Assembly (NCBI RefSeq): GCF_003352045.1
Contig: NZ_CP025815.1
Location: forward strand, 1,302,001 to 1,366,000
Source: Sulfitobacter sp. JL08
GTDB taxonomy: Bacteria; Pseudomonadota; Alphaproteobacteria; Rhodobacterales; Rhodobacteraceae
Direction: 5' to 3'
DNA: 64,000 nt
Shown: piece by piece, positions 33,489 through 47,318 of the stretch
Layout: the number at the start of each line of letters is the position of its first letter
Numbering within the stretch: position 1 is the stretch's first letter
Made by a program: the position numbers and the translations under genes
The notes under the pieces: model-generated
What the model was told of the DNA's origin: nothing
Databases searched by the model: none
Seen by the model: the letters and a program-made list of their open reading frames with translations, nothing else

Positions 33489-35948
33489 CTAGCACTTAAT
33501 CTTTTTCATGTCAGGATCGTAGAGCGGCTTTAACGAAGCAGTTGCCGCAAACCGTTCCCCAGCAATGTCGATCTGCCATGCCCCTTTAGCGACAATGTCG
33601 CCACTCAAAGGCCGGTCAAGCGTGACAAAGCCGATACCAACGGCCCCGCCTAGCGTGTGTCCGTAGCCGCCGATCTGGATGTATCCTACCTGTTCATCGC
33701 CCAGATAGATCAGTTCGTTCCCATATAGCAGCGGGTCCGGGTCATTGATCAGAAACTGCACCATGCGGGTTTTGGGAATCCCGCGCGCCTTGATCGCAGC
33801 CAGCGCGTCGCGCCCGATGAACCCGCCGGGCTTGTCCAGTTTCACAGCAAAGCCAAGGCCCGCCTCGATCGGGTTGTCGGTGTTGTCCACATCCAGCCCA
33901 AAATCGCGGTATGCCTTTTCCAGCCGCAAGGAATTCAGAGTTTGCATGCCGGCATTGCGCACGCCCAGATCGCGCCCCGCCTGCATCAGCAGATCATAGG
34001 TTTGCACCGCCTGCGTTGCAGGCACGTGCAATTCCCAACCCAACTCGCCGATGAACGTGACGCGGTAAGCCAGCACATCGGCATACCCGACGTCGATGTT
34101 GCGCGCTGTCATAAAGGGAAACCCGCTGTCGGACAGATCAGCGCCCGATACCCGTTGCATCAGGTCGCGCGCCTTGGGGCCATGCACGTTGATCTGTGTG
34201 CGCCCTGCAGTCACATCCGTGACGGTCACGCATTCTTCTGCGCCGATATGGCGGCGCATGCGCATTTCGGTGTGCCCATGTGAATTTTCACCCACCACCA
34301 CCATGAATTTGTCAGAGGCAAGCCGTGTGACCGTCAGGTCCGCCTCAAACCCGCCGCGCTCGTTGGTCCATGCAGTATAGACGACGCGGCCCGGTTCAAC
34401 ATCAACCTCGTTACAGGACAGGCGGGACAGCAGCGCGCAGGCATCGCGCCCCTGCACCAGAAAACAGGACATTGTGGTCATGTCCATAATCACCACATCT
34501 TCGCGCGCCGCGCGGTGTTCTTCGGCGTGCCAGTCAAACCAGTTCTGGCGGTGCCAGCTTAACCGTTCGATTCTGGCCTGTTCGGGAGACGGCGCGAACC
34601 AGTCTGGCTGTTCCCACCCGTTGCCTTCAGTGAAATACGCACCTGCCGCTTTCAGCCGGTCATAGAGGACCGATTGTTTTACATTGCGCGCGGTTTTGGG
34701 GCTTTCGTTGTGATAATGCTGGCCAAACAGCTTGCCCAGCAATTCGGGCGTGCGGTCGCGGCGAAAAGCGGGGGTGGCCTCGCATCTGGTAAAGCGGTTG
34801 ACGTTGATGCCGGTCACATCAATCGGGGGCAACTCGTCCACGATCCAGTTGGCCAGCACCATTCCGGTACCTGCGCCATTCAGAATGCCCAGCGAATTCA
34901 TGCCACATGCTACCCAGCAATTGCGCAACTCGGGTGTCGGCCCGACCAGCGGCGCCAGATCGGGTGTAAAGCTTTCGGGGCCACAAAACAGTTTCTTTAC
35001 GCCGTAGTTCATCGCCGCCGGGACGCGGCTATAGGCTTTTTCAAGATCGGGGCCGACGCGGTCCCAGTCGGGTTCGATCTCTCCGAACTGGAAATCATCG
35101 GGAATTCCGTCCAGCTTCCACGCAGCGGCACCGGGTTCGAACAGACCCAGCATCAGGCCGCCAACCTCTTCACGGTAATAGGTGTAGTTTGACGGGTCTT
35201 CCAATACCGGCAGATCGCGGGGCAGATCGGGTATGGTTTCGGTGATCAGATAATAGTGTTCGGCCGCCTGAAGCGGCAGGTTGATGCCAGCGCTGGCGCC
35301 CAGCTGGCGCGACCACATCCCGCCGCATATCACGACATTTTCAGCCGTAATCACATGCCCGTACTGTGTGTGCACGCCCGTTGCCGTGCCGTTTTTGGCC
35401 AGAATTTCGCTGACACGCACGCCTTCGAACACACGCGCGCCACCCATCCGCGCACCTTTGGACAGCGACATGGTGATATCCACCGGATTGGCACGCCCGT
35501 CTTCGGGGATGTAAAACGCGCCTTTCACGTCGCTTAAGTCCCCGATGGGGAACATATCCTGCGCCTCTTTGGGGGAAATTTCGTGACAGTTGATGCCAAA
35601 GCGGCGCATGAAGGGTGCGATGCGGCGCATTTCGTGCACGCGTTCGTCATTGTTGGCAATTTGCAGGTATCCGACATCGCGAAATCCTGTCGGAACTCCG
35701 GTTTCCTGTTCCAGATTGGCGTAAAGATCGCGCCCGTGCGTGTACATTTCACATTCGGCTTCGGATTTGAGCAATCCGGCCACGATCAGACCGGCAGCAT
35801 GCCATGTGGTGCCGGAAGTCAGTTGCCCCTGTTCCAGAACAACAACATCCGTGTGCCCCAGCTTTGTCAGGTGATAGGCCGTATTCATACCGATAGAACC
35901 GCCGCCGATGATCACGGTATGGGCATGGGATGGCATTGTGTCGGGCAT
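33489..35948 (-). CDS. Dimethylglycine/sarcosine dehydrogenase family flavoprotein
   Basis: An 819-residue two-domain enzyme. Residues 1-400 are a DAO-type FAD domain (VIIGGGSIGMNTAYHL) with SGTTWHAAGL, where the His is the usual covalent FAD attachment site. Residues about 430-810 are a GcvT-like folate-binding aminomethyl domain (GELGWELHVP, ETRIEAGLGF-like NPIEAGLGFAVKL). The family oxidatively demethylates dimethylglycine or sarcosine, passing formaldehyde to tetrahydrofolate. The TetR-type operator 65 bases upstream links it to the neighbouring amine genes. It converges with no gap on the membrane/spermidine-synthase gene. Confidence 0.88.
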   Translation of the reverse strand: MPDTMPSHAHTVIIGGGSIGMNTAYHLTKLGHTDVVVLEQGQLTSGTTWHAAGLIVAGLLKSEAECEMYTHGRDLYANLEQETGVPTGFRDVGYLQIANNDERVHEMRRIAPFMRRFGINCHEISPKEAQDMFPIGDLSDVKGAFYIPEDGRANPVDITMSLSKGARMGGARVFEGVRVSEILAKNGTATGVHTQYGHVITAENVVICGGMWSRQLGASAGINLPLQAAEHYYLITETIPDLPRDLPVLEDPSNYTYYREEVGGLMLGLFEPGAAAWKLDGIPDDFQFGEIEPDWDRVGPDLEKAYSRVPAAMNYGVKKLFCGPESFTPDLAPLVGPTPELRNCWVACGMNSLGILNGAGTGMVLANWIVDELPPIDVTGINVNRFTRCEATPAFRRDRTPELLGKLFGQHYHNESPKTARNVKQSVLYDRLKAAGAYFTEGNGWEQPDWFAPSPEQARIERLSWHRQNWFDWHAEEHRAAREDVVIMDMTTMSCFLVQGRDACALLSRLSCNEVDVEPGRVVYTAWTNERGGFEADLTVTRLASDKFMVVVGENSHGHTEMRMRRHIGAEECVTVTDVTAGRTQINVHGPKARDLMQRVSGADLSDSGFPFMTARNIDVGYADVLAYRVTFIGELGWELHVPATQAVQTYDLLMQAGRDLGVRNAGMQTLNSLRLEKAYRDFGLDVDNTDNPIEAGLGFAVKLDKPGGFIGRDALAAIKARGIPKTRMVQFLINDPDPLLYGNELIYLGDEQVGYIQIGGYGHTLGGAVGIGFVTLDRPLSGDIVAKGAWQIDIAGERFAATASLKPLYDPDMKKIKC

Positions 35949-36012: not shown

Positions 36013-36033
36013 TGATTGAATGTCCATTCAGTG
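36013..36033. promoter_or_regulatory. TetR-type operator, copy 1
   Basis: A palindrome TGAATG-TC-CATTCA lies 69 bases upstream of the DMGDH-like gene. The 21-bp block matches the site at 38971-38991 at 19 positions. The TetR regulator at 43210-43869 is the likely binder; the shape is like BetI-type sites. Confidence 0.65.
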
Positions 36034-36131
36034 GGTGAGGTTGAAAAAGAGGCAGGCGTGATCCGGAATGCCTTGCGTTGTAGCGGTAACGCACGCAGTT
36101 TGGCATGATCGAACGTGCGACGAGATCAGGT

Positions 36132-36785
36132 ATGACGAAACAAAATCAGCAGGGCAAAATCGCCAAAAGCCGGCAGAGCACACTTGTGGTCGATGGCGAT
36201 CTGCCCCCCGAAAGGCTGGTTCTGGAAACGCCGCGGCTTGTGCTGCGGCCATTCACGCCGGATGATGAGGATATTGCATTCGAAGTGCTGAGCAGCCCCG
36301 ATGTGATGCGCTACGTTTCAGATGCCATGACGGCGCATGAGGTGTCTGAACACATGCCAGATGCCACCCGGCGCGGGGCAGGTGGGCGCATTGGCATCTG
36401 GTGTGCGCAGATCAGGGAAACGGGTGAAAAAATCGGCGATGGCGTGCTGACGCCGATCCCGATCGAAGGTGAAGATACTGATTGGTCACAGGTCGTGCCC
36501 GACGCCTAACCCGATGACCGGATCGAAGTGGGCTATCTGTTGAAACCATCGGCTTGGTGGAAAGGGTACGCGACCGAGATTTGCAAAAGGTTGTTGCAAT
36601 TTGCCTTTGAGCAGACGGCCCTGGACGAGGTGGTGGCCTGCACTGATCCGGAAAATTTCCGATCGCAACATGTGCTGAAGAAATCGGGCATGCGTGATTG
36701 TGGAACGGGCCGTGCTTATGGCGAATCCGTTGCATGGTTCGAACTGACGCGGGCAGAGTGGATGGCGCAACACCCGGCATCGTGA
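36132..36785 (+). pseudogene. GNAT acetyltransferase (RimJ/RimL type) with an in-frame TAA
   Basis: The first half (RLVLETPRLVLRPFTPDDED) and second half (VGYLLKPSAWWKGYATEICK, FRSQHVLKKSGMRDCG) are in the same frame and together make a normal RimJ/RimL-type protein of about 217 residues. A TAA at 36507-36509 separates them where family members usually have Tyr-Pro (PDA-stop-PDDRIEVGY). The acetyl-CoA site lies after the stop, so a truncated product would be inactive. The target is unknown. It could be real decay or a base-call error. Confidence 0.78.
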
Positions 36786-36791
36786 TCGTGG

Positions 36792-38088
36792 TTAGCGCAG
36801 GGTTTTCGCAATCTTTTTGGCCGCAGCTTTTCCGCTGTTGTAAGCGCCGTTGACAAGCGCCGATCTGGCGCCCCCCATCGCTTCTCCGGCAAAGAATACG
36901 CGGCCTGCCAGGGGCTCTGCCAGGATGTCGCGTGCACCATCCGCACCGGGGCGCACCGCACCATAGGCTCCAAGCGTCAGGGGGTTTTCTGCCCAGTCCG
37001 TTGCAAAGCCCTTGATGAAATGTTTGCGCATCGCTGCCCACGATCCGCACCAGTTGGGTCAGCGCGTAATCCACGACGGCATCCGGCCCTTCACGCGAAA
37101 GCGCCCATCCGAAACGGCCGCCGATATTGCCGAACAGGTAATCATGCCCGCAGGGCCAGGCGATGAAGTAACAGGCTTCGCCGGCGCTATCTTCGGGAAT
37201 GCGGTATGTGACCCAGTTGTTTTCATCCAATCCCAGACGGGCGCCATCAAACAGCATCGGGACTTTCACCAGCAACCCCATCGGGATGTCGGCGGCAGCC
37301 TGTCTTTTCCGATCGGGCAGGTCGGGAACAAAGCGGATCTTGTTGGCGTTCAATACGCCGGTCGAAACCGTGACAAGACAGGCCTTGGCGGCAAGTGTTC
37401 CGCGTGATGTTTCAACCCTGACGCCTTGACCGGACCAATCGACAGTCGTGACGGTGGTTCCCAGTTTGATGGGCAACCCCCTGGCCTGTGTCGCGACGAC
37501 AGCGCCCAGACCTTCTGCCACAAAGGCACTGGGCTGATCATCGGCCGAGTCCCATAACTCCATCGTGGAAACCTGATCAAAATCAACGCCGTAATCCATC
37601 GCCCCCATCCATGACTGCACAGTCGCGCAATAGGGCATGCCCTTGATCACGGTCGAGGCCGGAACATCCTTGCCCTTTTTTCCGGCTTTGGTGGGTGCAC
37701 GTTCGGTTTCCCGTACTGCACGAAGATACGCGGCCCATTCGGTTTCGCTGGCCCTGTTGCCGTCCAGATCAAACAGATCAATTCCGGCATTGGTATGATC
37801 GATCAGGGTGAACCCTTTCTTTCGGGCCACTTTGGCAAATCGGTTTTTGTCTGATCCTGAAACCCAGGAACATCCGTGATCTACCGGAACCCCGAAGCTG
37901 ACACTTTCGGTATGGGCGCGCCCGCCGACGCGATCTGCGGCTTCGACGATCACACGGGATATACCTGCCTTTCGCAACGTGCGGCCGGCTGCCATTCCGG
38001 CGGCACCGGCCCCAATGATCACAACATCGGGATTCGTGGGTATTTCGTCTACACTGGCACCTGTGGCGTGGTCACGTACGGGGATCAT
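36792..38088 (-). pseudogene. Flavin-containing monoamine oxidase, frameshifted
   Basis: The N-terminal dinucleotide motif VVIIGAGAAGMAAGRTL, ADRVGGRAHTE and VDHGCSWVSG identify an amine oxidase. The first frame runs to about 37030; then GYG-like LTLGAYGAVRPG and GRVFFAGEAMGGARSALVNG continue in a second frame to 36792. One extra base (or two missing) near 37020-37030 explains it. The last part is essential for FAD binding. The ATG at 38088 overlaps the cupin stop (ATGA) and has AAGGACA upstream. Possible substrates are polyamines or other primary amines. Confidence 0.85.
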
Positions 38089-38846
38089 GGCGCTGTCCTT
38101 TGGGGGCGGATCGCGGGGTTCAGCGCCGCATAGTATTTGCGCAGGTAGCGGGGCACATGCCAGCTGCACAGGGTTCCTGCGGGCACAAAGAACACGTCGC
38201 CGGACTTGAAATGGTGTTCGGTCCCGTCAGCTTCGCGCAGCGTGACCTCTCCCTCCAGAACGTGGGCGAATTCATGGTATCCGAACGGTTCCAGTTCCGT
38301 TGACAGGGTCTGTGTATCCCATAAGCCGACTTCGAAATTCCCGTGCAGGTTTTCAAAAAACACCCTTTCCCGCTGGGGCGTGCTGGTGTTTTCCAGCAGG
38401 TCCGCATCTGACAGTTGCGTATCCGGATCAAGAACAATCACGCCGCCTGCGGCGCTTTCGATCTGCGGGGTGTCGGCACGCAGATCCATGTAGTTGATAT
38501 AGAATTTCTTAAGGTATCCATCCTGTTTCCAACTGGTCTGGATACCGTTGCGAAAGATCACGTTTTGTCCCTTGCGGGCGGGAACGCCATGCCCGTTTTC
38601 GTCGAGCATCTGAAACTGGCCATCCAGCACAAGAATGAATTCATCACCGGGTTAGGGGCCAAAAGCCTCTTGCATGGTGGTCGTGTTCCAGACGCCGGCG
38701 CTCATCCCCAGTTCGGGATCTTCGAAATAGACATGCACATTCTGTTCAGACGGCATGGTGTGAAAATCGTCCGCACTCAGCTCCATGCGGGTCAGCCCGC
38801 CAGGGCCGTTGGGTTCGAAGCAGATTATTCCGGTGGGCTGTGTCAT
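38085..38846 (-). pseudogene. Double-cupin protein with an in-frame TAA
   Basis: The frame from ATG 38846 reads LSADDFHTMPSEQNVHVYFE and stops at TAA (38652-38654). The same frame then continues PGDEFILVLDGQFQML and a second cupin barrel (EFAHVLEGEVTL, FKSGDVFFVPAGTLCSWHV) to 38085. Restored length is 253 residues. The stop sits where Tyr is expected before PGDE. It is translationally coupled to the amine oxidase. A role as a small-molecule-binding or processing partner in amine breakdown is inferred from position only. Confidence 0.75.
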
Positions 38847-38970
38847 CTGGTTTCGATCCTTTTGGCGCGGCGCAGTCTGATGTTTTCAAATGTGCCTGTT
38901 CTTTGAGCGCGCAGCGGAAACATCAAAGCACGGCGTCTAAATTTCTTGACTCAATCGGGTGATTACTCAA

Positions 38971-38991
38971 TGATTGAATGATCATTCAGTG
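38971..38991. promoter_or_regulatory. TetR-type operator, copy 2
   Basis: TGAATG-AT-CATTCA, a perfect palindrome inside a 21-bp block almost identical to that at 36013-36033. It lies between the divergent cupin/amine-oxidase genes and the ABC transporter operon, so it can control both. Confidence 0.7.
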
Positions 38992-39113: not shown

Positions 39114-40238
39114 ATGGATGTTGTCGATCAACTAGGCGCTGTGCGCGAAGGAAAACTAAGCCGTCGGGCGTTTGCCAAGGGGCTGCTGGCGTCGGGTGTC
39201 GCAATGGCGACCGTACCGGCGGCGTCGCGTCGAGCGATGGCCGCACCCGAAGATCAGGCATCGTATTTCACATGGGGAGGCTATGATATCCCCGAACTGT
39301 TCCAGCCTTATGAAGCCAAGCATGGCGAGATGCCGAATTTCGCGATCTTTGGCGGGTCTGAAGAAGCCCTGACCAAAATGCGCGGCGGTTTCGTCGTCGA
39401 TGTGGCGCACCCGTGCAATTCTGGCATGCCGCGCTGGGTGCAAACCGGGTTGTTCCAGCCGATCGATACATCCCGGATTTCGATGTGGGGCGATGTGATG
39501 CCCGAACTGATCGATCTTCCGGGCAATGATGCCGAAGGCGGCAACGTCTGGATGGCACCGTTCGACTGGGGCCAGACCTCGGTCACGTATCGCACCGATC
39601 TGTTCGAGCTGGAAGGCGAGGAAAGCTGGGACATGCTGTGGGACAAGCGGTATGCCGGGCGTCTGGGGTCTCTGGCGTCTGCCGGTGATGCATGGTGGTG
39701 CGGTGCGATTAAGGCGGGCGTACCAATGTCCGAGATCGCAACCGAAGAGGCATTTACCAAAATCGCGGCCGTGATGCGCGAACAGCGCCCGCTGATCCGC
39801 GTATACACCGATGACACAACCACGCTGGAACAGGCGTTGTCATCGGGCGAAATGGCGGCGGCCATGACGTGGAACAGTTCTGCCGTTCTGCTGCAATCCG
39901 AAGGGATACCCGTGAAATTTGCACGACCCAAAGAGGGCGCGCTGACATGGGTGTGCGGTGTGATGATTCACAAGGACGCGCCGAACATTGATCGTGCCTA
40001 TGACGTGATTGAATCGCTGCTGAGCGTTGAATCCGGAAAATTCATGATCAACGATTACGGCTACGGGCATTCCAACATCCGGTCTTTCGACGAATTTGAC
40101 GAAGAAACCCTGGCCGGGTTGGGACTAAGCAAGAATCCGAATGAAATCCTGTCGGCGGGTCACTTCCAGCTGCCGCAGACACAGGAAGTCGAAACCCGCA
40201 TGAACGAGACGTTCGAGCAGATCAAGGCCGGATTCTGA
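39114..40238 (+). CDS. PotD-type ABC transporter substrate-binding protein
   Basis: A 374-residue periplasmic protein with a twin-arginine-like signal (LSRRAFAKGLLASGVAMATVP, cut near AMA-APE). The start of the mature part, ASYFTWGGYDIPELFQPYE, is the pattern of spermidine/putrescine-type binding proteins. AFDWGQ-like APFDWGQTSVTYRTD and AMTWNSSAVLLQSEG are ligand-pocket segments. AAAGGGAGACC precedes the ATG. It is the first of four transporter genes. The ligand is probably a polyamine or quaternary/methylated amine, judged from the flanking catabolic genes. Confidence 0.85.
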   Translation: MDVVDQLGAVREGKLSRRAFAKGLLASGVAMATVPAASRRAMAAPEDQASYFTWGGYDIPELFQPYEAKHGEMPNFAIFGGSEEALTKMRGGFVVDVAHPCNSGMPRWVQTGLFQPIDTSRISMWGDVMPELIDLPGNDAEGGNVWMAPFDWGQTSVTYRTDLFELEGEESWDMLWDKRYAGRLGSLASAGDAWWCGAIKAGVPMSEIATEEAFTKIAAVMREQRPLIRVYTDDTTTLEQALSSGEMAAAMTWNSSAVLLQSEGIPVKFARPKEGALTWVCGVMIHKDAPNIDRAYDVIESLLSVESGKFMINDYGYGHSNIRSFDEFDEETLAGLGLSKNPNEILSAGHFQLPQTQEVETRMNETFEQIKAGF

Positions 40239-40311: not shown

Positions 40312-41247
40312 ATGGCTGATACGTCCCTTTCGCGCACGACGACGGATGCCGCCCCGAAAAGGCGATCAGGATCGCGGTTGTCGGTTCTTCTGCACCGCAA
40401 TGAAACGCTGCGCGGCTATCTTCTGATGTCGCCCACAATGCTGATTATGACCGTCGGCATTCTTGTGCCATTCATTATCCTGCTGGTGATGAGTTTCTGG
40501 ACCCGCGAAGGGTTCGGTTTTGACACCACGATGACGGTCAACAACTACGCCCGTATCTGGAACGAACCGATTTTTGGCGCCTTGCTGACGCGGTCCTTCT
40601 GGATTTCCGGTGTCGCAACCGTGGCCACTGTCGCGCTTTGTTATCCGATGGCCTATTACGTCGCCTTTCACGTCCATCGCAACAAGATGATGTGGATCAT
40701 TCTGATGACCTTGCCGTTCTGGACCAGCTATCTGCTGCGGGTTTTCGCTTGGAAGGTGATCCTGGGGTACGAGGGTGTGATCAATTCCGGCCTGATGGGG
40801 CTGGGCTGGATCGAGGCGCCACTGGAATTTCTGCTCTACAGTCAAACGGCAGTGGTGATCACACTGGCCCATGCTTGGGCGGCGTTTGCCATCCTGCCGC
40901 TTTATGTGTCGCTGGAAAAAATCGACAAGTCGCTTCTGGAGGCCGCAACCGATCTGGGGGATGGTCCATTCTACCGCTTTTTCCGGATCACTTTGCCGCT
41001 GTCGATACCGGGCATCATCGCCGCCTCGTTCCTGATCTTTATCCCGACCACGGGCGATTACATCACACCCGCCCTTCTGGGCGGGCCGGACGGGGCGATG
41101 ATTGGCAACTTTATCCAGCTGCAATTCGGCGCAATCAACAACTGGCCGATGGGGGCCAGCCTGTCGATCGTACTGATGCTGTGGATTGCCGCAATCGCTC
41201 TGGTGTTCCTGTTTCTGACCCGCACCACGCAGGACAAAATCGCATGA
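40312..41247 (+). CDS. PotB-type ABC transporter permease
   Basis: A 311-residue inner-membrane permease with six predicted membrane segments and the coupling loop LLEAATDLGDGPFYRFFRITLPLS. VPFIILLVMSFW and SYLLRVFAWKVIL are typical of PotB/PotH. About 35 polar residues precede the first hydrophobic segment. Its stop overlaps the next permease start (ATGA). It pairs with the following gene to form the channel. Confidence 0.88.
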   Translation: MADTSLSRTTTDAAPKRRSGSRLSVLLHRNETLRGYLLMSPTMLIMTVGILVPFIILLVMSFWTREGFGFDTTMTVNNYARIWNEPIFGALLTRSFWISGVATVATVALCYPMAYYVAFHVHRNKMMWIILMTLPFWTSYLLRVFAWKVILGYEGVINSGLMGLGWIEAPLEFLLYSQTAVVITLAHAWAAFAILPLYVSLEKIDKSLLEAATDLGDGPFYRFFRITLPLSIPGIIAASFLIFIPTTGDYITPALLGGPDGAMIGNFIQLQFGAINNWPMGASLSIVLMLWIAAIALVFLFLTRTTQDKIA

Positions 41248-42050
41248 GCAACGGTACCTATATCAAACGGCCCAACCGGCCCCTGCAAATATACGCGGTG
41301 ATCTTTCTGATCGTGCTCTATGTGCCCGTGTTGTTCATCCCGCTGTTCAGCTTCAACGATTCAATCTATGTACGCTTTCCGCTCAAGGGTTTTACGCTGG
41401 AATGGTACGGGCAGTTGTGGCTGCGCGAACCGGTGTGGAACGCGTTGTGGAACAGCGTCAAGGTGGGCATTGTCGTTTCGGTCATATCGACATTGCTGGG
41501 GGTCGTGGCTGCCCGTGCCATTACCCGCTACCGCATGCCGGGGCGCAATGCGATCGTGACATTTATCATGATGCCGCTGGTGATCCCGGGGATCATTTTC
41601 GGCGTTGCCCTTCTGGTTCTGATGAGCCGTCTTGGCGTGCCGCTTTCGCTTTACACCGTGACGCTGGGCCACCTGATCGTGTGTCTGCCCTTTGCCGTTG
41701 CCGTGCTGCTGCCCCGCTTCGAAGGCTTTGACCGCTCGATGGAGGAAGCTTCGGCTGATCTGGGTGAAAACGGCTGGTGGACATTCTGGCGCGTCACCTT
41801 TCCGATGGTCTTGCCCGGCGTGGTGGCCAGCCTGTTGTTGACGTTCACCATCTCTTTCGATGAATTCATCATGGCATTTTTCCTGACCGGTACTGATCCG
41901 ACCCTGCCGATGTATATCTGGGGCCAGTTGCGGTTCCCGCAGGAATTCCCGTCAGTGCTTGCGCTGTCTTCACTGATCCTTTTTGTTTCTTTCTTGCTGG
42001 TGTTTTTCGCGCAATGGATCGGACGCCGGGGATTGGATTCTGACACATGA
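41244..42050 (+). CDS. PotC-type ABC transporter permease
   Basis: A 268-residue permease with PVLFIPLFSFNDS near the start, LVIPGIIFGVALLVL in the middle and the coupling loop MEEASADLGENGWWTFWRVTFP. FTISFDEFIMAFFLTG is a PotC/PotI hallmark. The ATG at 41244 overlaps the previous stop. It forms a heterodimeric channel with the PotB-like permease. Confidence 0.88.
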   Translation: MSNGTYIKRPNRPLQIYAVIFLIVLYVPVLFIPLFSFNDSIYVRFPLKGFTLEWYGQLWLREPVWNALWNSVKVGIVVSVISTLLGVVAARAITRYRMPGRNAIVTFIMMPLVIPGIIFGVALLVLMSRLGVPLSLYTVTLGHLIVCLPFAVAVLLPRFEGFDRSMEEASADLGENGWWTFWRVTFPMVLPGVVASLLLTFTISFDEFIMAFFLTGTDPTLPMYIWGQLRFPQEFPSVLALSSLILFVSFLLVFFAQWIGRRGLDSDT

Positions 42051-42063
42051 CAAGGCCAAAACA

Positions 42064-43167
42064 ATGACATCTCCTGACGCATTCATATCCATCCGGAACG
42101 TCAACAAATTCTTCGGTTCGTTTCAGGCCATAGACGATGTTTCGATGGACATCGCGCAGGGAGAGTTCTTTTCCCTGCTGGGCGCGTCCGGTTGCGGCAA
42201 AACCACGTTGCTGCGGATGCTGGCGGGTTTTGAATCCACTTCGGCGGGAGAGATTTTCATTGATGGCCAGCCTTCGGCCGATGTGCCGCCCCACCACCGC
42301 CCCGTTAATATGGTGTTCCAGAGCTATGCAATCTTCCCGCATCTGAATGTGCGCGACAACATTGCCTATGGCCTGCGCAAACAGAAACTGCCCAAGGCCA
42401 AACACGCTGCGCTGGTTGATGAAATGCTGGATCTGATCAAGCTGCCCGGATATGGCGATCGCAAGGCCACGGAATTGTCCGGCGGACAGCGTCAGCGGAT
42501 TGCCTTGGCCCGCGCCCTGATCCTGCGCCCCAAGGTTCTGCTGCTGGACGAACCTTTGGGCGCACTGGACAAGCAGTTGCGCGAACAGATGCAACTGGAA
42601 CTGCGCGCCTTGCAGCGCAAGGTTGGCATCACCTTCGTGTTTGTCACCCATGACCAGGAAGAGGCGCTGACCCTGTCGGACCGTATTGCCGTTATGGCGG
42701 GCGGGCGTGTGCTTCAGGTTGATACGCCTTCCGGGTTGTACGAACGGCCCCAAACCCGCGAAGTTGCCAGTTTCATCGGCAACATGAACTTTTTCAGGGG
42801 TACAGTCCGGCGCAACGGGTCGGCAATGGCGGCGATCGAAACCGAAGGGCTGGGTCAAATTCCCGTGCCTGCCAAAGATGTCGAATATCCAGATGGCGCG
42901 CATGTGCAGGTTGCGCTGCGACCCGAAAAATTTGCGCTTTCCGCGACCAAAACAGATGCCGCGCACAGTGTGGCTGGCACATTAAGCAACGCGGCCTATC
43001 TGGGAGAAAGAAGCCATTATTATGTGACTATAGAGGGCAAGGATGATCCGGTTGCCGTATCAAGCCCGCACTTGGCACTGGTGAATAACGACACATCACA
43101 ACAGACTGGTGCGCCCATGTGGTTATCCTGGTCGCCCGAGTCGATTGTGGTGTTGGATGCAGGATGA
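42064..43167 (+). CDS. PotA-type ABC transporter ATP-binding protein
   Basis: A 367-residue ATPase with Walker A GASGCGKTT, Q-loop NMVFQSYAIFPHL, signature [15 protein letters not shown] and Walker B VLLLDEPLGALD. A C-terminal TOBE domain follows residue 280 (VALRPEKFALS, YLGERSHYYVT), as in PotA/PotG. It powers the two permeases. The ATG at 42064 is 14 bases after the permease stop. Confidence 0.9.
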   Translation: MTSPDAFISIRNVNKFFGSFQAIDDVSMDIAQGEFFSLLGASGCGKTTLLRMLAGFESTSAGEIFIDGQPSADVPPHHRPVNMVFQSYAIFPHLNVRDNIAYGLRKQKLPKAKHAALVDEMLDLIKLPGYGDRKATELSGGQRQRIALARALILRPKVLLLDEPLGALDKQLREQMQLELRALQRKVGITFVFVTHDQEEALTLSDRIAVMAGGRVLQVDTPSGLYERPQTREVASFIGNMNFFRGTVRRNGSAMAAIETEGLGQIPVPAKDVEYPDGAHVQVALRPEKFALSATKTDAAHSVAGTLSNAAYLGERSHYYVTIEGKDDPVAVSSPHLALVNNDTSQQTGAPMWLSWSPESIVVLDAG

Positions 43168-43209: not shown

Positions 43210-43869
43210 ATGAACCAGACGGTCAGAGCATCAAAGCCCGACGTCAAGCCCAAGGCGCGCACGGCCTCGAAAGAGGTGCGGCGCGGTCAGTTGATCGCAG
43301 CCACGATAGAATCGATTTCCAAACACGGCATCGGTGGAACGACCATGTCGACCGTGACGGACATTGCCGGGCTGTCCATCGGCATCGTCAACTTCCATTT
43401 TCAAAGCAAGCAAAACCTGTTCGAGGAAACGCTGGTTTTTCTGGCTCGCCAGCATCACGATCACTGGCTGAACGGATACAAGGATGCAGGGCTAAGCCCA
43501 AAGGACAAGTTGCAGGCCATTGTGGATGCGCATTTTCATGCGAAAATCTGTACCCACAAGAATCTGGCCGTCTGGTTCGCCTTTTACGGAGAGGCGGGGC
43601 GCCGCGAAACCTATCGCAAACTGATCGAGGATATCGACTCCGAGCGGTTCGAGATTTCGGTCGATCTGTGCACCCAGATTGCGAAGGAGGGTGGATATAA
43701 CGCCATCCCGCCGCACCAGATCGCCAACCTGCTCGAGGCGCTGTACGACGGGTTGTGGCTGGATATCCTGACCTATCCCGGCAGTTATTCGCGCCAGACC
43801 GCCCGCGCCCATATCGGGGCGTTTCTGGCCAACGTGTTTCCAGGGCATTTTGACATGCCCGAATTCTGA
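43210..43869 (+). CDS. TetR-family regulator, BetI-like
   Basis: A 219-residue repressor-type protein. Residues about 20-70 are the HTH (RRGQLIAATIESISKHGIGG, VTDIAGLSIGIVNFHFQSKQ). The C-terminal ligand domain resembles BetI (HFHAKICTHKNLAVWFAFYGEAG, LLEALYDGLWLDIL). BetI-like proteins respond to choline or other amines. It follows the transporter and precedes the TMADH-like gene; the two matching palindromes upstream of DMGDH and the transporter are its probable targets. There is no copy of the site directly before its own gene. Confidence 0.87.
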   Translation: MNQTVRASKPDVKPKARTASKEVRRGQLIAATIESISKHGIGGTTMSTVTDIAGLSIGIVNFHFQSKQNLFEETLVFLARQHHDHWLNGYKDAGLSPKDKLQAIVDAHFHAKICTHKNLAVWFAFYGEAGRRETYRKLIEDIDSERFEISVDLCTQIAKEGGYNAIPPHQIANLLEALYDGLWLDILTYPGSYSRQTARAHIGAFLANVFPGHFDMPEF

Positions 43870-43950
43870 ACCGAACCCGCCAGCCGATCTGGTCTGCACC
43901 TGATGCGCTTTCATCGGGCCGGATATGCTGCACCCCGAAGGAGCAAGATA

Positions 43951-46041
43951 ATGACCCGCGACCCACGCTATGACATCCTGTTCGAGCCGGTCAAAATAGG
44001 CCCAGTCACAGCGCCCAACCGGTTCTATCAGGTGCCCCATTGCACAGGCATGGGTTGGCAGCGGCCCCGCACATTGGCGGCCATGCGCGGGGTCAAGGCA
44101 GAGGGCGGTTGGGGGGTTGTCTGTACCGAATACAATTCTATCCACCCCACGTCTGATGATCTGCCCCATGCCTATGCATCGCTGTGGGATGATAGCGATG
44201 TGCGCGCGCACAGTTTGATGACCGACGTGGTGCATGAACACGGTTCACTGGCAGGGGCTGAGTTGTGGTATGGCGGTGCAAGATCATCCAACCTGATGTC
44301 GCGCCTGTCCTCGATGGATGTAGACAGCGTGCCCAATCTGGCAGGCCATCCGTTTCAGACCCGCGCCATGGACAAATCCGATATCCGGACCTTTCGCCAC
44401 TGGCACAAGCGCGCGGCCCTGCGCGCGCGCGACGCGGGGTTTGATGTTGTCTATGTCTACGCCACGCACGGCTATCTGATTTCAAATTTCCTCAATCCAC
44501 GGATGAACACACGCTCGGACGAATACGGTGGTTCGCTTGAAAACCGTGTGCGTCTGGTGCGCGAACTGATCGAAGAAACCAAGGAAGCGGTGGGGGACCG
44601 CTGCGCCGTTGCCGTACGCTTTTCCGCAGATGAGGAAATCGGAGAAGACGGTCAGCCTATTCAGGGTGAACGCCGAGAAATGCTGGAAATGATGGCTGAT
44701 CTGCCCGATCTTTGGGATATCAACATTGCCGATTACTCGCTTGAAATGGGCGTGTCCCGCTTTGTCAAAGAGGCATCGCTGGAACCTTACATGACATGGG
44801 TAAAATCGGTCACGTCCAAACCCGTGGTCACAGTAGGGCGCTTTACCTCGCCCGATACGATGGTGTCTCAGGTCAAGCGCGGGATCACCGATTTCATCGG
44901 CGCGGCGCGTCCGTCGATTGCAGACCCGTTCCTGCCCAGAAAGATACAGGAAGGTCGCCTGTCTGCCATCCGCGAATGTATCGGCTGCAATGTCTGTTAT
45001 TCCGGTGACAGCCTTGGCGTGCCGATCCGGTGTACCCAGAATCCGACCATGGGCGAAGAATGGCGGCGCGGCTGGCACCCTGAAAGCATTGCCAAAAAGG
45101 CATCGGACAGCCGTGTTCTGATCGTCGGGGCCGGTGCGGCCGGGCTCGAGGCGGCGCGCGCCCTTGGCGAACGTGGCTATGACGTCATGCTGGCCGAGGC
45201 CACGCGCGATATCGGCGGACGGGTCACGCGCGAGGCCAGCCTGCCGGGAATGAGCGAATACATCCGAGTGCGTGACTACCGCGAGCAGCAACTGATCGAA
45301 ATGACCAATGTCGATATCTTCCGCGAAAGCCTGATGAGTGCGCAGGATGTCATGGCGGTCGAAGCGGATCATGTCGCGATCGCCACCGGCGCGCACTGGC
45401 GCAAGGAGCTGTTCAACGAAGAGATCTATGTGCCGATTGCCACAGGCGATGCAGCCACGCGCGTCCTGACCCCTGACGATATCATGGACGGCCGGATGCC
45501 GGATGGTCCGGTACTGGTTTATGATGGTGACGGGTATTACATGGGCGGCGTCATAGCCGAGCGGATACGTGCGGCCGATCTGGACGTAACCTATTGCACG
45601 CCCTCTGACAGCGTATCGCATTGGGCGGGCAACACGTCGGAACGCTGGCGCATTCGAACCCATATGATGGGTCTGGGTATCCGGATCGAAACGGCCCACA
45701 GTTTGCACATGTTCGACGGGGAACAGGCTGTTCTGGAATGCGCCTATAGCGGCGCGCAAAAAACACTGTCGGTGGCAAGTGTGGTGATGGTGACGGCCCG
45801 CAAACCGAACGACGCGATGTTTCATGATCTGCGGGCAGCCGCAGGACCCGATGGTTTGCCCTTTACACTGACACGGATCGGGGATTGCGAAGCTCCGGCA
45901 ATCATTGCCGCAGCGGTTCACGCCGGACATCGCTATGCGCAGGAACTCGACTGCGAAATCGATATCGATATGCCGCTGCGTCACGACAGGCTGGATGTGG
46001 GGTTTGATACTGGAGCGGTGGCACCGGCGCGGTGGAAGTAA
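43951..46041 (+). CDS. Trimethylamine/dimethylamine dehydrogenase-like flavoprotein (DgcA-like)
   Basis: A 696-residue old-yellow-enzyme/FAD fusion. Residues 1-380 are an FMN barrel (LFEPVKIGPVTAPNRFYQVP, NPRMNTRSDEYGGSLENRVR). CIGCNVCYSGDSLGVPIRC supplies the 4Fe-4S cysteines. From about residue 385 comes an ADP/FAD fold (VLIVGAGAAGLEAARALGERG). This layout fits trimethylamine, dimethylamine and histamine dehydrogenases and DgcA of dimethylglycine breakdown. GAAGGAG precedes the ATG. With the TetR gene upstream, the amine-degradation link is strong, but the exact amine is not determined. Confidence 0.85.
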   Translation: MTRDPRYDILFEPVKIGPVTAPNRFYQVPHCTGMGWQRPRTLAAMRGVKAEGGWGVVCTEYNSIHPTSDDLPHAYASLWDDSDVRAHSLMTDVVHEHGSLAGAELWYGGARSSNLMSRLSSMDVDSVPNLAGHPFQTRAMDKSDIRTFRHWHKRAALRARDAGFDVVYVYATHGYLISNFLNPRMNTRSDEYGGSLENRVRLVRELIEETKEAVGDRCAVAVRFSADEEIGEDGQPIQGERREMLEMMADLPDLWDINIADYSLEMGVSRFVKEASLEPYMTWVKSVTSKPVVTVGRFTSPDTMVSQVKRGITDFIGAARPSIADPFLPRKIQEGRLSAIRECIGCNVCYSGDSLGVPIRCTQNPTMGEEWRRGWHPESIAKKASDSRVLIVGAGAAGLEAARALGERGYDVMLAEATRDIGGRVTREASLPGMSEYIRVRDYREQQLIEMTNVDIFRESLMSAQDVMAVEADHVAIATGAHWRKELFNEEIYVPIATGDAATRVLTPDDIMDGRMPDGPVLVYDGDGYYMGGVIAERIRAADLDVTYCTPSDSVSHWAGNTSERWRIRTHMMGLGIRIETAHSLHMFDGEQAVLECAYSGAQKTLSVASVVMVTARKPNDAMFHDLRAAAGPDGLPFTLTRIGDCEAPAIIAAAVHAGHRYAQELDCEIDIDMPLRHDRLDVGFDTGAVAPARWK

Positions 46042-46049
46042 GGACAGGA

Positions 46050-46547
46050 ATGAACATGTCTGATCAAATCTATCTGGATACGCTGTTGCTGTATTACGAA
46101 GAAGAAATCGAAGGCGAAGCCTATTTCGCCGAACTGTCGCAGCTGTTTTCACAGCCGGATCACAAGGAAAAACTGACCCTTCTGGCCAAGGTCGAACGCC
46201 ACGCGGCAAACGCGATCGAGCCGCTGCTTGCGGGCCATGGCATGCAACCGCGGCCCCTCCAAATTCTGACGAAAAGCGGGCGGGATCAGGCGCGCGCCAC
46301 CGCTGCGGACTGGCCCGCGCTGCTGGCTGACATGAACCAGAACTATCCCGGATTTCTTGAGGATTTCAGAGCGTTGGAGACGATGGCGCCCGCACCTGAT
46401 CGTGACCGTCTGGGGTTTCTGACGGAACACGAGGTTGCCGCGATTGCCTTTCTGGCCCGCGAAGGGCAGGGCGATGCAAATAGTGTTCAACCGTTGAACG
46501 CCTATCTGGCTGCAGACCCCGCTACATGGTGCGCGGGCAGGGGATAA
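46050..46547 (+). CDS. Uncharacterised helical protein after the TMADH-like gene
   Basis: A 165-residue, probably all-alpha cytoplasmic protein with no signal peptide. YLDTLLLYYEEEIEGEAYFAEL and the Glu/His-rich pattern hint at a ferritin-like helical bundle (E-x-x-H in VERHAAN), but no family is recognised with confidence. It starts eight bases after the dehydrogenase stop, so a helper role in that pathway is possible. ATG at 46056 is an alternative start. Confidence 0.55.
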   Translation: MNMSDQIYLDTLLLYYEEEIEGEAYFAELSQLFSQPDHKEKLTLLAKVERHAANAIEPLLAGHGMQPRPLQILTKSGRDQARATAADWPALLADMNQNYPGFLEDFRALETMAPAPDRDRLGFLTEHEVAAIAFLAREGQGDANSVQPLNAYLAADPATWCAGRG

Positions 46548-46839: not shown

Positions 46840-46995
46840 CTATTTCAGGAAATAGGACGTAATCCTGCCCACGCCCTTGACCACATGATCGCGCGCTTGC
46901 GCATCCCGTCCGTGTGGCCCCAGCGCGTCCTTGGTGGCCTTTGAAATCTGGATATGTCCGGCCTTGCCCGTGGCTTCCAGCCGGCTGGCCAGATG
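46840..46995 (-). pseudogene. Class III nucleotide cyclase C-terminal remnant
   Basis: The minus strand reads HLASRLEATGKAGHIQISKA and ends VVKGVGRITSYFLK before TAG at 46840-46842. This is the C-terminal part of an adenylate/guanylate cyclase domain (VNLASRLE...VKGKG...TYFL). It is cut exactly where the IS6-like sequence begins at 46995, so the gene was broken by that insertion or a later deletion. Confidence 0.75.
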
Positions 46996-47318
46996 GCATT
47001 GTCAGAGGAAACCGGGTTGAGCCGGGCAGGGCGGTTTCGTACCTTCCGGACATGACTAAATCTGATCCATTTCGCTATTTCAAAACAAGTCGTGAGATTA
47101 TCCGTCTGGCGGTGATGCTGTACGTCCGGTTTCCTCTGTCCCTTCGCAATGTGGAAGATTTGCTCCATGAACGGGGCATTGATGTCAGCCATGAAGCCGT
47201 TCGATTTTGGTGGCATCGGTTCGCCGAAAGGACTGTTGCCGGTTTCCTGAGTGCGCAAAAAGAGATATCAAACAACGTAGTCCCGTCGCCAGAACACCAT
47301 CTGGCCGCTCACCAATAA
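46995..47318 (+). mobile_element. IS6-family element remnant with truncated transposase
   Basis: GGCATTGTCAGAGG at 46995 resembles an IS6 terminal repeat. From ATG 47052 the protein MTKSDPFRYFKTSREIIRLA continues with FPLSLRNVEDLLHERGIDVS and FWWHRF, the conserved N terminus of IS6-family transposases. Similarity ends at about 47222, and the DDE core is absent; the frame closes at 47318. It marks the left edge of the region with altered base composition. No gene is seen between it and 47366. Confidence 0.75.

Follow-up and report, generated by a model that had tools for sequence, protein, structure and literature searches.

Which genes might two near-identical palindromes in the genome of Sulfitobacter sp. 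JL08 control, and which protein might read them? Both lie in the 64,000-nucleotide stretch of DNA analysed here (the window). From sequence comparisons, we give a probability of roughly 85% to the reading that both sites are bound by the TetR/BetI-like product of the gene at 43210, which co-represses an importer-tetR-flavoenzyme operon and a DMGDH-like gene and is released by an N-methylated amine or amino acid or a product of one. What we infer here are the binding, the repression with its direction of control, and the class of the effector. The features concerned are listed below in window coordinates.

33489..35948, minus strand: DMGDH-like gene, 819 aa, with domains DAO, FAO_M, GCV_T and GCV_T_C (profile and structure-sequence matches)
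36013-36033, plus strand: predicted operator 1, core 36017-36030, 68 bp upstream of the DMGDH-like gene
36105..36770, plus strand: broken GNAT acetyltransferase gene, in-frame TAA at 36507
36795..38091 (limits approximate), minus strand: broken flavin amine oxidase gene, frame changes near 36990-37030
38085..38846, minus strand: broken cupin gene, in-frame TAA at 38652-38654
38946..38974, plus strand: promoter-like TTGACT-17-AATGAT, the second hexamer running into operator 2
38971-38991, plus strand: predicted operator 2, core 38975-38988, upstream of the binding-protein operon
39114..40238, plus strand: ABC transporter binding protein, PotD-like (profile matches)
40312..41247, plus strand: ABC permease, PotB-like (profile matches)
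41244..42050, plus strand: ABC permease, PotC-like (profile matches)
42064..43167, plus strand: ABC ATPase, PotA-like, over the TIGR01187 cut-off (profile matches)
43210..43869, plus strand: proposed regulator, 219 aa, TetR_N and BetI-type C-terminal domain (profile matches, model)
43903..46041, plus strand: flavoenzyme of the trimethylamine/histamine dehydrogenase family, 712 aa (profile and structure-sequence matches)
46032..46547, plus strand: 171-aa protein without a Pfam match, beside the flavoenzyme gene in many relatives; probably the last gene of the operon

Operator 1 reads TGATTGAATGTCCATTCAGTG and operator 2 reads TGATTGAATGATCATTCAGTG. As an earlier note on this DNA had it, the two share their orientation, 19 of 21 positions and the core TGAATG-N2-CATTCA, and the coordinates it gave are right; direct comparison over the 21 positions places both differences at the two central bases.

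Across relatives, the palindrome is kept ahead of the same two genes. The TetR protein was searched in 295 family genomes, each with its own genus label, of which 55 match at E 1e-20; stretches were fetched around 20 of the matches, and 80 named loci came from a second collection, mostly from Roseobacter-group genera (Roseovarius, Ruegeria, Aestuariivita, Shimia) with a few other alphaproteobacteria. Because the two sets share contigs (L034/L056, L035/L057, L037/L069 and L046/L107, for example, are identical) and the genomes are related, they are not independent samples. By our own count, the core occurs with at most one mismatch in 56 of the 80 named loci and is missing at that limit from 24, where several contigs end early. 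Within the 350 bp before gene starts, it is present with at most one mismatch in 27 of 34 binding-protein regions (15 exact; 7 lack it) and in 21 of 31 DMGDH regions (8 exact; 10 lack it), after stretches shorter than 300 bases and matches of low identity were dropped (DMGDH below 44%, binding protein (SBP) below 50%, first permease (PERM1) and ATPase (ATP) below 55%). As a control, 89 permuted palindromes reach at most one binding-protein region and no DMGDH region. Upstream of the other genes, the core is found at 0 of 93 flavoenzyme, 0 of 38 first-permease, 0 of 42 ATPase, 3 of 18 amine oxidase, 2 of 24 cupin and 11 of 80 tetR genes, the last an undercount, since the extrapolation of these gene starts ran beyond the site; for tetR, the locus-by-locus count is the better guide. 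One permuted palindrome matches 26 of the 42 ATPase regions, presumably through conserved coding sequence, so relatedness alone can produce such counts.

Conservation is concentrated in the core itself. In an alignment of 34 binding-protein and 27 DMGDH rows, window included and regions with more than two core mismatches or near an edge dropped, most columns of the core reach 1.2-2.0 bits, against 0.0-0.6 for most columns of the flanks, promoter elements excepted. Among DMGDH genes at least 67% identical to that of the window, the core stands upstream with at most one mismatch in 22 of 29, with two mismatches in 4 and with more in 3; leaving out five loci that had been fetched for their site gives 17 of 24 at the one-mismatch limit. 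The good DMGDH-side sites lie 63-103 bp from the gene start. At 45-47% identity the core is present in 4 of 6, and below 35% in 0 of 2 (matches shorter than 600 aa or with fewer than 150 bases upstream were dropped from this comparison). Strong sites outside the previously fetched stretches tell the same story, with 5 of 6 lying 63-76 bp upstream of DMGDH orthologs that are 78-85% identical to the window's.

The sixth such site, in genome G113 (L172:5023; G113:C18:28822), sits between other genes, a deacylase-like and aminotransferase-like pair on one side and a methyltransferase-like and GNAT pair on the other (labels assigned by eye), and is possibly an extra branch of the regulon. In locus L173, a site lies between the DMGDH gene and a methyltransferase-like gene that is followed by a GNAT gene. 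Distant TetR relatives, at 40-41% identity, have exact or one-mismatch palindromes upstream of a different binding-protein operon (L051:14728, L052:14359, L053:14458 and 14620), so this type of operator may extend past the clade.

The position of the sites relative to promoters suggests how they might act. Around operator 2, a promoter scan finds one candidate against a shuffle average of 1.7, no better than chance, so the case for this promoter rests on conservation: of the 34 aligned binding-protein promoters, that of the window among them, 30 have a TTGAC starting 27-33 nt ahead of the core; permuted pentamers average 1.1 (one reaches 27, presumably by overlapping the same conserved block). 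The 43210 protein would bind both palindromes as a dimer, with a consensus of about TGATTGAATG-N2-CATTCAATCA. At operator 2, the bound dimer would cover the -10 region, a simple occlusion that would repress the genes for the binding protein, two permeases, ATPase, TetR and flavoenzyme and so turn off uptake, an oxidative enzyme and the regulator's own gene; at operator 1, the DMGDH-like gene would be repressed. The effector might be an N-methylated amine or amino acid brought in by the importer, or a product of it; by binding the regulator it would free both sites and switch on import, oxidation and folate-linked demethylation together.

At operator 1 the arrangement is less plain. On the DMGDH strand, the core is followed by TTGATT, a possible -35, in 18 of 27 aligned sites (a count made without a shuffled control), and operator 1 does not plainly cover the -10 of the DMGDH promoter. 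Read the other way, the DMGDH-side sites lie beside the TTGAC of a divergent gene in 21 of 27 cases, against a mean of 0.8 and a maximum of 10 for permuted pentamers. With the site just upstream of a possible -35, repression of DMGDH is less evident and activation by the regulator becomes a rival for this operator. The geometry of operator 2 is that of occlusion, and most TetR proteins are repressors, which makes activation unlikely, if worth weighing, beside co-repression from both sites.

The proposed regulator belongs to the TetR family. Its helix-turn-helix matches PF00440 (TetR_N) at 38.8 bits against a cut-off of 24, and its predicted structure (pLDDT 90) is all-helical, with TetR-family proteins as the best PDB matches. 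The top 20 structural matches include choline-bound 4kwa and also 4nel, whose truncated title suggests bound trimethylamine; these model-based matches give a weak hint of an amine ligand. The tetR gene starts 42 bp after the ATPase gene and the flavoenzyme gene 33 bp after tetR, which places it within the transporter-flavoenzyme operon and the regulator inside one of its proposed target operons. Elsewhere, the tetR ortholog and DMGDH are transcribed divergently and have the core (at most one mismatch) between them, in 19 of 80 named loci by our own count and again in the 20 kb stretches L046-L049, whose contigs recur among the 80; this placement points to the 43210 protein as the regulator.

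The site also travels with the regulator. A strong site is found in 15 of the 295 genomes, and all 15 belong to the 18 in which the TetR match reaches 43% identity or more (P 1.4e-22, relatedness ignored), a limit set after the identities had been seen; without that limit, the site is in 15 of the 55 TetR-bearing genomes and in none of the other 240. The strong-site model was trained partly on sites from these genomes; the exact core, independent of training, is present in 10 of the 18 genomes and in 28 of the other 277 (P 8e-6). Three of the 18 are without a strong site, namely G062, G240 and G244, the contig of G244 ending inside the transporter genes. The earlier note's proposal of two operators in one regulon under the 43210 TetR is thus backed by conservation at the same genes across genera, by tetR genes that face DMGDH across the site, and by the co-occurrence of site and regulator; from conservation and co-occurrence, the 43210 protein would be the one that binds the palindrome. 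Shimia gijangensis DSM 100564 has two paralogs of the regulator (L089 and L125), one facing DMGDH, with the core at no more than one mismatch, and one in the transporter setting, where the core appears only at two mismatches.

A different TetR-family protein might instead bind both sites while the 43210 protein acts elsewhere, and candidates are at hand: many loci carry a second, BetI-type TetR (about 31-39% identical) near the cluster, and the genome holds 12 matches to the BetI model, mostly to its N-terminal part only. This is distinctly unlikely. The core is upstream of the second TetR in 0 of 24 regions. In L046-L049, no second TetR was seen, and yet the 43210 ortholog has the site next to it. 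Only one other protein in the genome matches the 43210 protein at E 1e-20 (29% identity, C1:3981144). On these grounds the second TetR was rejected as the regulator.

The 43210 protein had been described as BetI-like, and a BetI-type paralog it is, though BetI it is not. It falls under both BetI cut-offs (115.9 against 201.3 bits for TIGR03384; 113.8 against 118 for PRK00767), and no bet or cho genes are among its scanned neighbours. The true betI, over the cut-off at 231.7 bits, is at C1:981249, next to transporter genes and a sulfatase-like gene (labels by eye). Just upstream of it is the BetI box ATTGACGCGTCAAT, at C1:981182-981195, the only exact match to the searched pattern; in R. pomeroyi, this palindrome was footprinted with BetI1 (PMC12442346). 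The window palindromes are unlike this box, of ATTGACG-CGTCAAT type, in both sequence and spacing. Two BetI-type regulators, each with its own operator, therefore coexist in this genome. Two things might suggest that these are BetI boxes after all, and that the cluster is part of the choline-glycine betaine regulon: the likeness of the regulator to BetI, and the role of DMGDH as a choline-breakdown step in R. pomeroyi, where the enzyme named is SPO3400 (PMC4744692). This reading is very improbable, and the true BetI was rejected as the regulator because its gene and its box, different from the window palindrome, are elsewhere in the genome.

The earlier note's reading would fall if the palindrome were common across the genome. 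It is not: in 4,323,690 bases the exact core occurs at the two operators only, and a reversed-pattern control finds none. Loosely matched, it is common (99 matches with at most two mismatches, against 21 for the reversed control), and the window itself has two loose matches against a shuffle average of 4.1; only copies that are exact, or nearly so, therefore tell anything. The single one-mismatch core elsewhere (C1:3484054) lies inside an ORF resembling a cation/proton antiporter. A 26-position matrix built from 48 sites, all outside the window, scores the operators at 42.1 and 35.6 bits, the best non-overlapping place in the window at 6.1 and the maximum of 100 mononucleotide shuffles at 14.8. 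A genome-wide sequence model from 50 hand-chosen sites (48 from named loci and the two window operators; the choice passed over, among others, L066, L110, L116 and, for L069 and L076, the site on the DMGDH side) gives them 28.7 and 23.7 bits, the next place being C1:2542160 at 12.7 bits (E 0.83).

Over the family, 38 of the 295 genomes have the exact core anywhere, against 1 of 295 for the reversed control. For the background, a hand count over the 277 genomes whose TetR match, if any, stays below 43% identity gives 32 exact cores in 28 genomes. At that rate, and assuming a mean genome size of 3.75 Mb, this genome should have about 0.13 exact cores, and the expectation for two of them within 3 kb of each other is about 1e-5. 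In G277 (L177), an exact core falls within a coding frame and is put down to chance. Chance palindromes, for which only the abundance of loose copies speaks, are rejected as a practically negligible explanation on the uniqueness of the exact core, its upkeep ahead of the same genes, the permuted-palindrome control, the pair expectation, the matrix scores against shuffles and the co-occurrence with the regulator.

Which genes, then, would the two operators serve? The earlier note placed them ahead of the DMGDH-like gene and between cupin/amine oxidase and transporter operons; the positions ahead of the DMGDH-like gene and upstream of the transporter operon stand, while the cupin and amine oxidase genes are broken. 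Relatives have open frames for the GNAT, amine oxidase and cupin genes, and the genes flanking 36105-38846 are open in the window. Each of the three carries one lesion, and both stops are a TAA followed by CCC where relatives have Tyr-Pro. What is left as live targets is thus the DMGDH-like gene together with the operon of transporter, tetR and flavoenzyme. Leftward of operator 2 and rightward of operator 1, the regulon branches are probably dead here, provided that the lesions are not sequencing errors. Just past the cluster, the frame 46914-47318 contains MLYVRFPLSLRNVEDLLHERGIDVSHEAVR, a stretch that recurs in a longer, transposase-like frame at another place in the genome (L003:5025-5666); the frame past the cluster is probably an insertion-sequence remnant.

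The live targets suggest a class of substrate. The DMGDH-like protein matches human DMGDH over its full length (E 1.8e-132), and its domains follow the expected order. It is one of 12 DMGDH-family genes in the genome, the other 11 being 31-44% identical to it, a rich set for the breakdown of N-methyl compounds. In alignment with solved family members, the flavoenzyme keeps the motifs VPHC and CIGCNVC...C, which we take to be those of the FMN cysteine and the 4Fe-4S cysteines. Because characterised members of both the DMGDH and the TMADH families act on amines, the earlier label of an amine regulon is reasonable as to class, as far as enzyme sequences can tell; choline, dimethylglycine and polyamines, which it had listed for expression tests, are not established as substrates.

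We lean, slightly, towards a regulon not described before, present in the Roseobacter group and in some alphaproteobacteria outside it, in which a BetI paralog with its own operator would sense a non-choline N-methylated amine and couple a polyamine-type importer to TMADH- and DMGDH-family enzymes. This would be a distinct marine route for methylated amines, under separate control. In the open-access literature, no description of it was found among the matches listed for BetI, TetR, Roseobacter, DMGDH, histamine dehydrogenase and RegPrecise topics, nor any occurrence of the site strings TGAATGNNCATTCA and TGAATGATCATTCA among the matches listed; a link to homarine was sought there without result. 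An operator, a regulator and a target list are now in hand for a widespread marine gene set, and the question of which methylated amine is involved becomes directly testable as a search for the compound that releases the repressor from a known site. Two BetI-type regulators with separate boxes in one genome also warn against filing the cluster under choline metabolism.

As a kind of system, a repressor with twin operators is an ordinary mechanism, and each part has known counterparts. The DMGDH-like protein has the same full-length domain order as mitochondrial DMGDH (5l46, 4p9s) and dimethylglycine oxidase (1pj5), but is one paralog among 12, and its substrate assignment is putative. The flavoenzyme is similar over its full length to trimethylamine, histamine and dimethylamine dehydrogenases (best 3k30, 6de6, 6l6j and 1djn). 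Of the residues in the aromatic substrate pocket of TMADH, the Tyr of TEY is apparently kept and the two Trp apparently are not (by eye), so its substrate is not fixed by the comparison. The importer has the same four parts as the spermidine/putrescine transporter PotABCD, but only its ATPase passes a curated cut-off, at subfamily level (TIGR01187), which makes it a putative polyamine-type importer. BetI of E. coli and BetI1 and BetI2 of R. pomeroyi share the TetR_N and BetI-type C-terminal domains with the 43210 protein, and BetI, a choline-responsive TetR repressor, likewise uses palindromic operators at the promoters of uptake and oxidation genes (PMC12442346); the 43210 protein differs in its lower profile scores, its proposed operator and its place outside a bet cluster. 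Methylated-amine control is likewise coordinated in a roseobacter by TmaR and TmoR of R. pomeroyi trimethylamine catabolism; the genes involved are other ones, TmoR is a GntR-family protein, and TmaR has its DNA-binding part at residues 211-316, unlike the N-terminal helix-turn-helix of the 43210 protein (PMC13390433).
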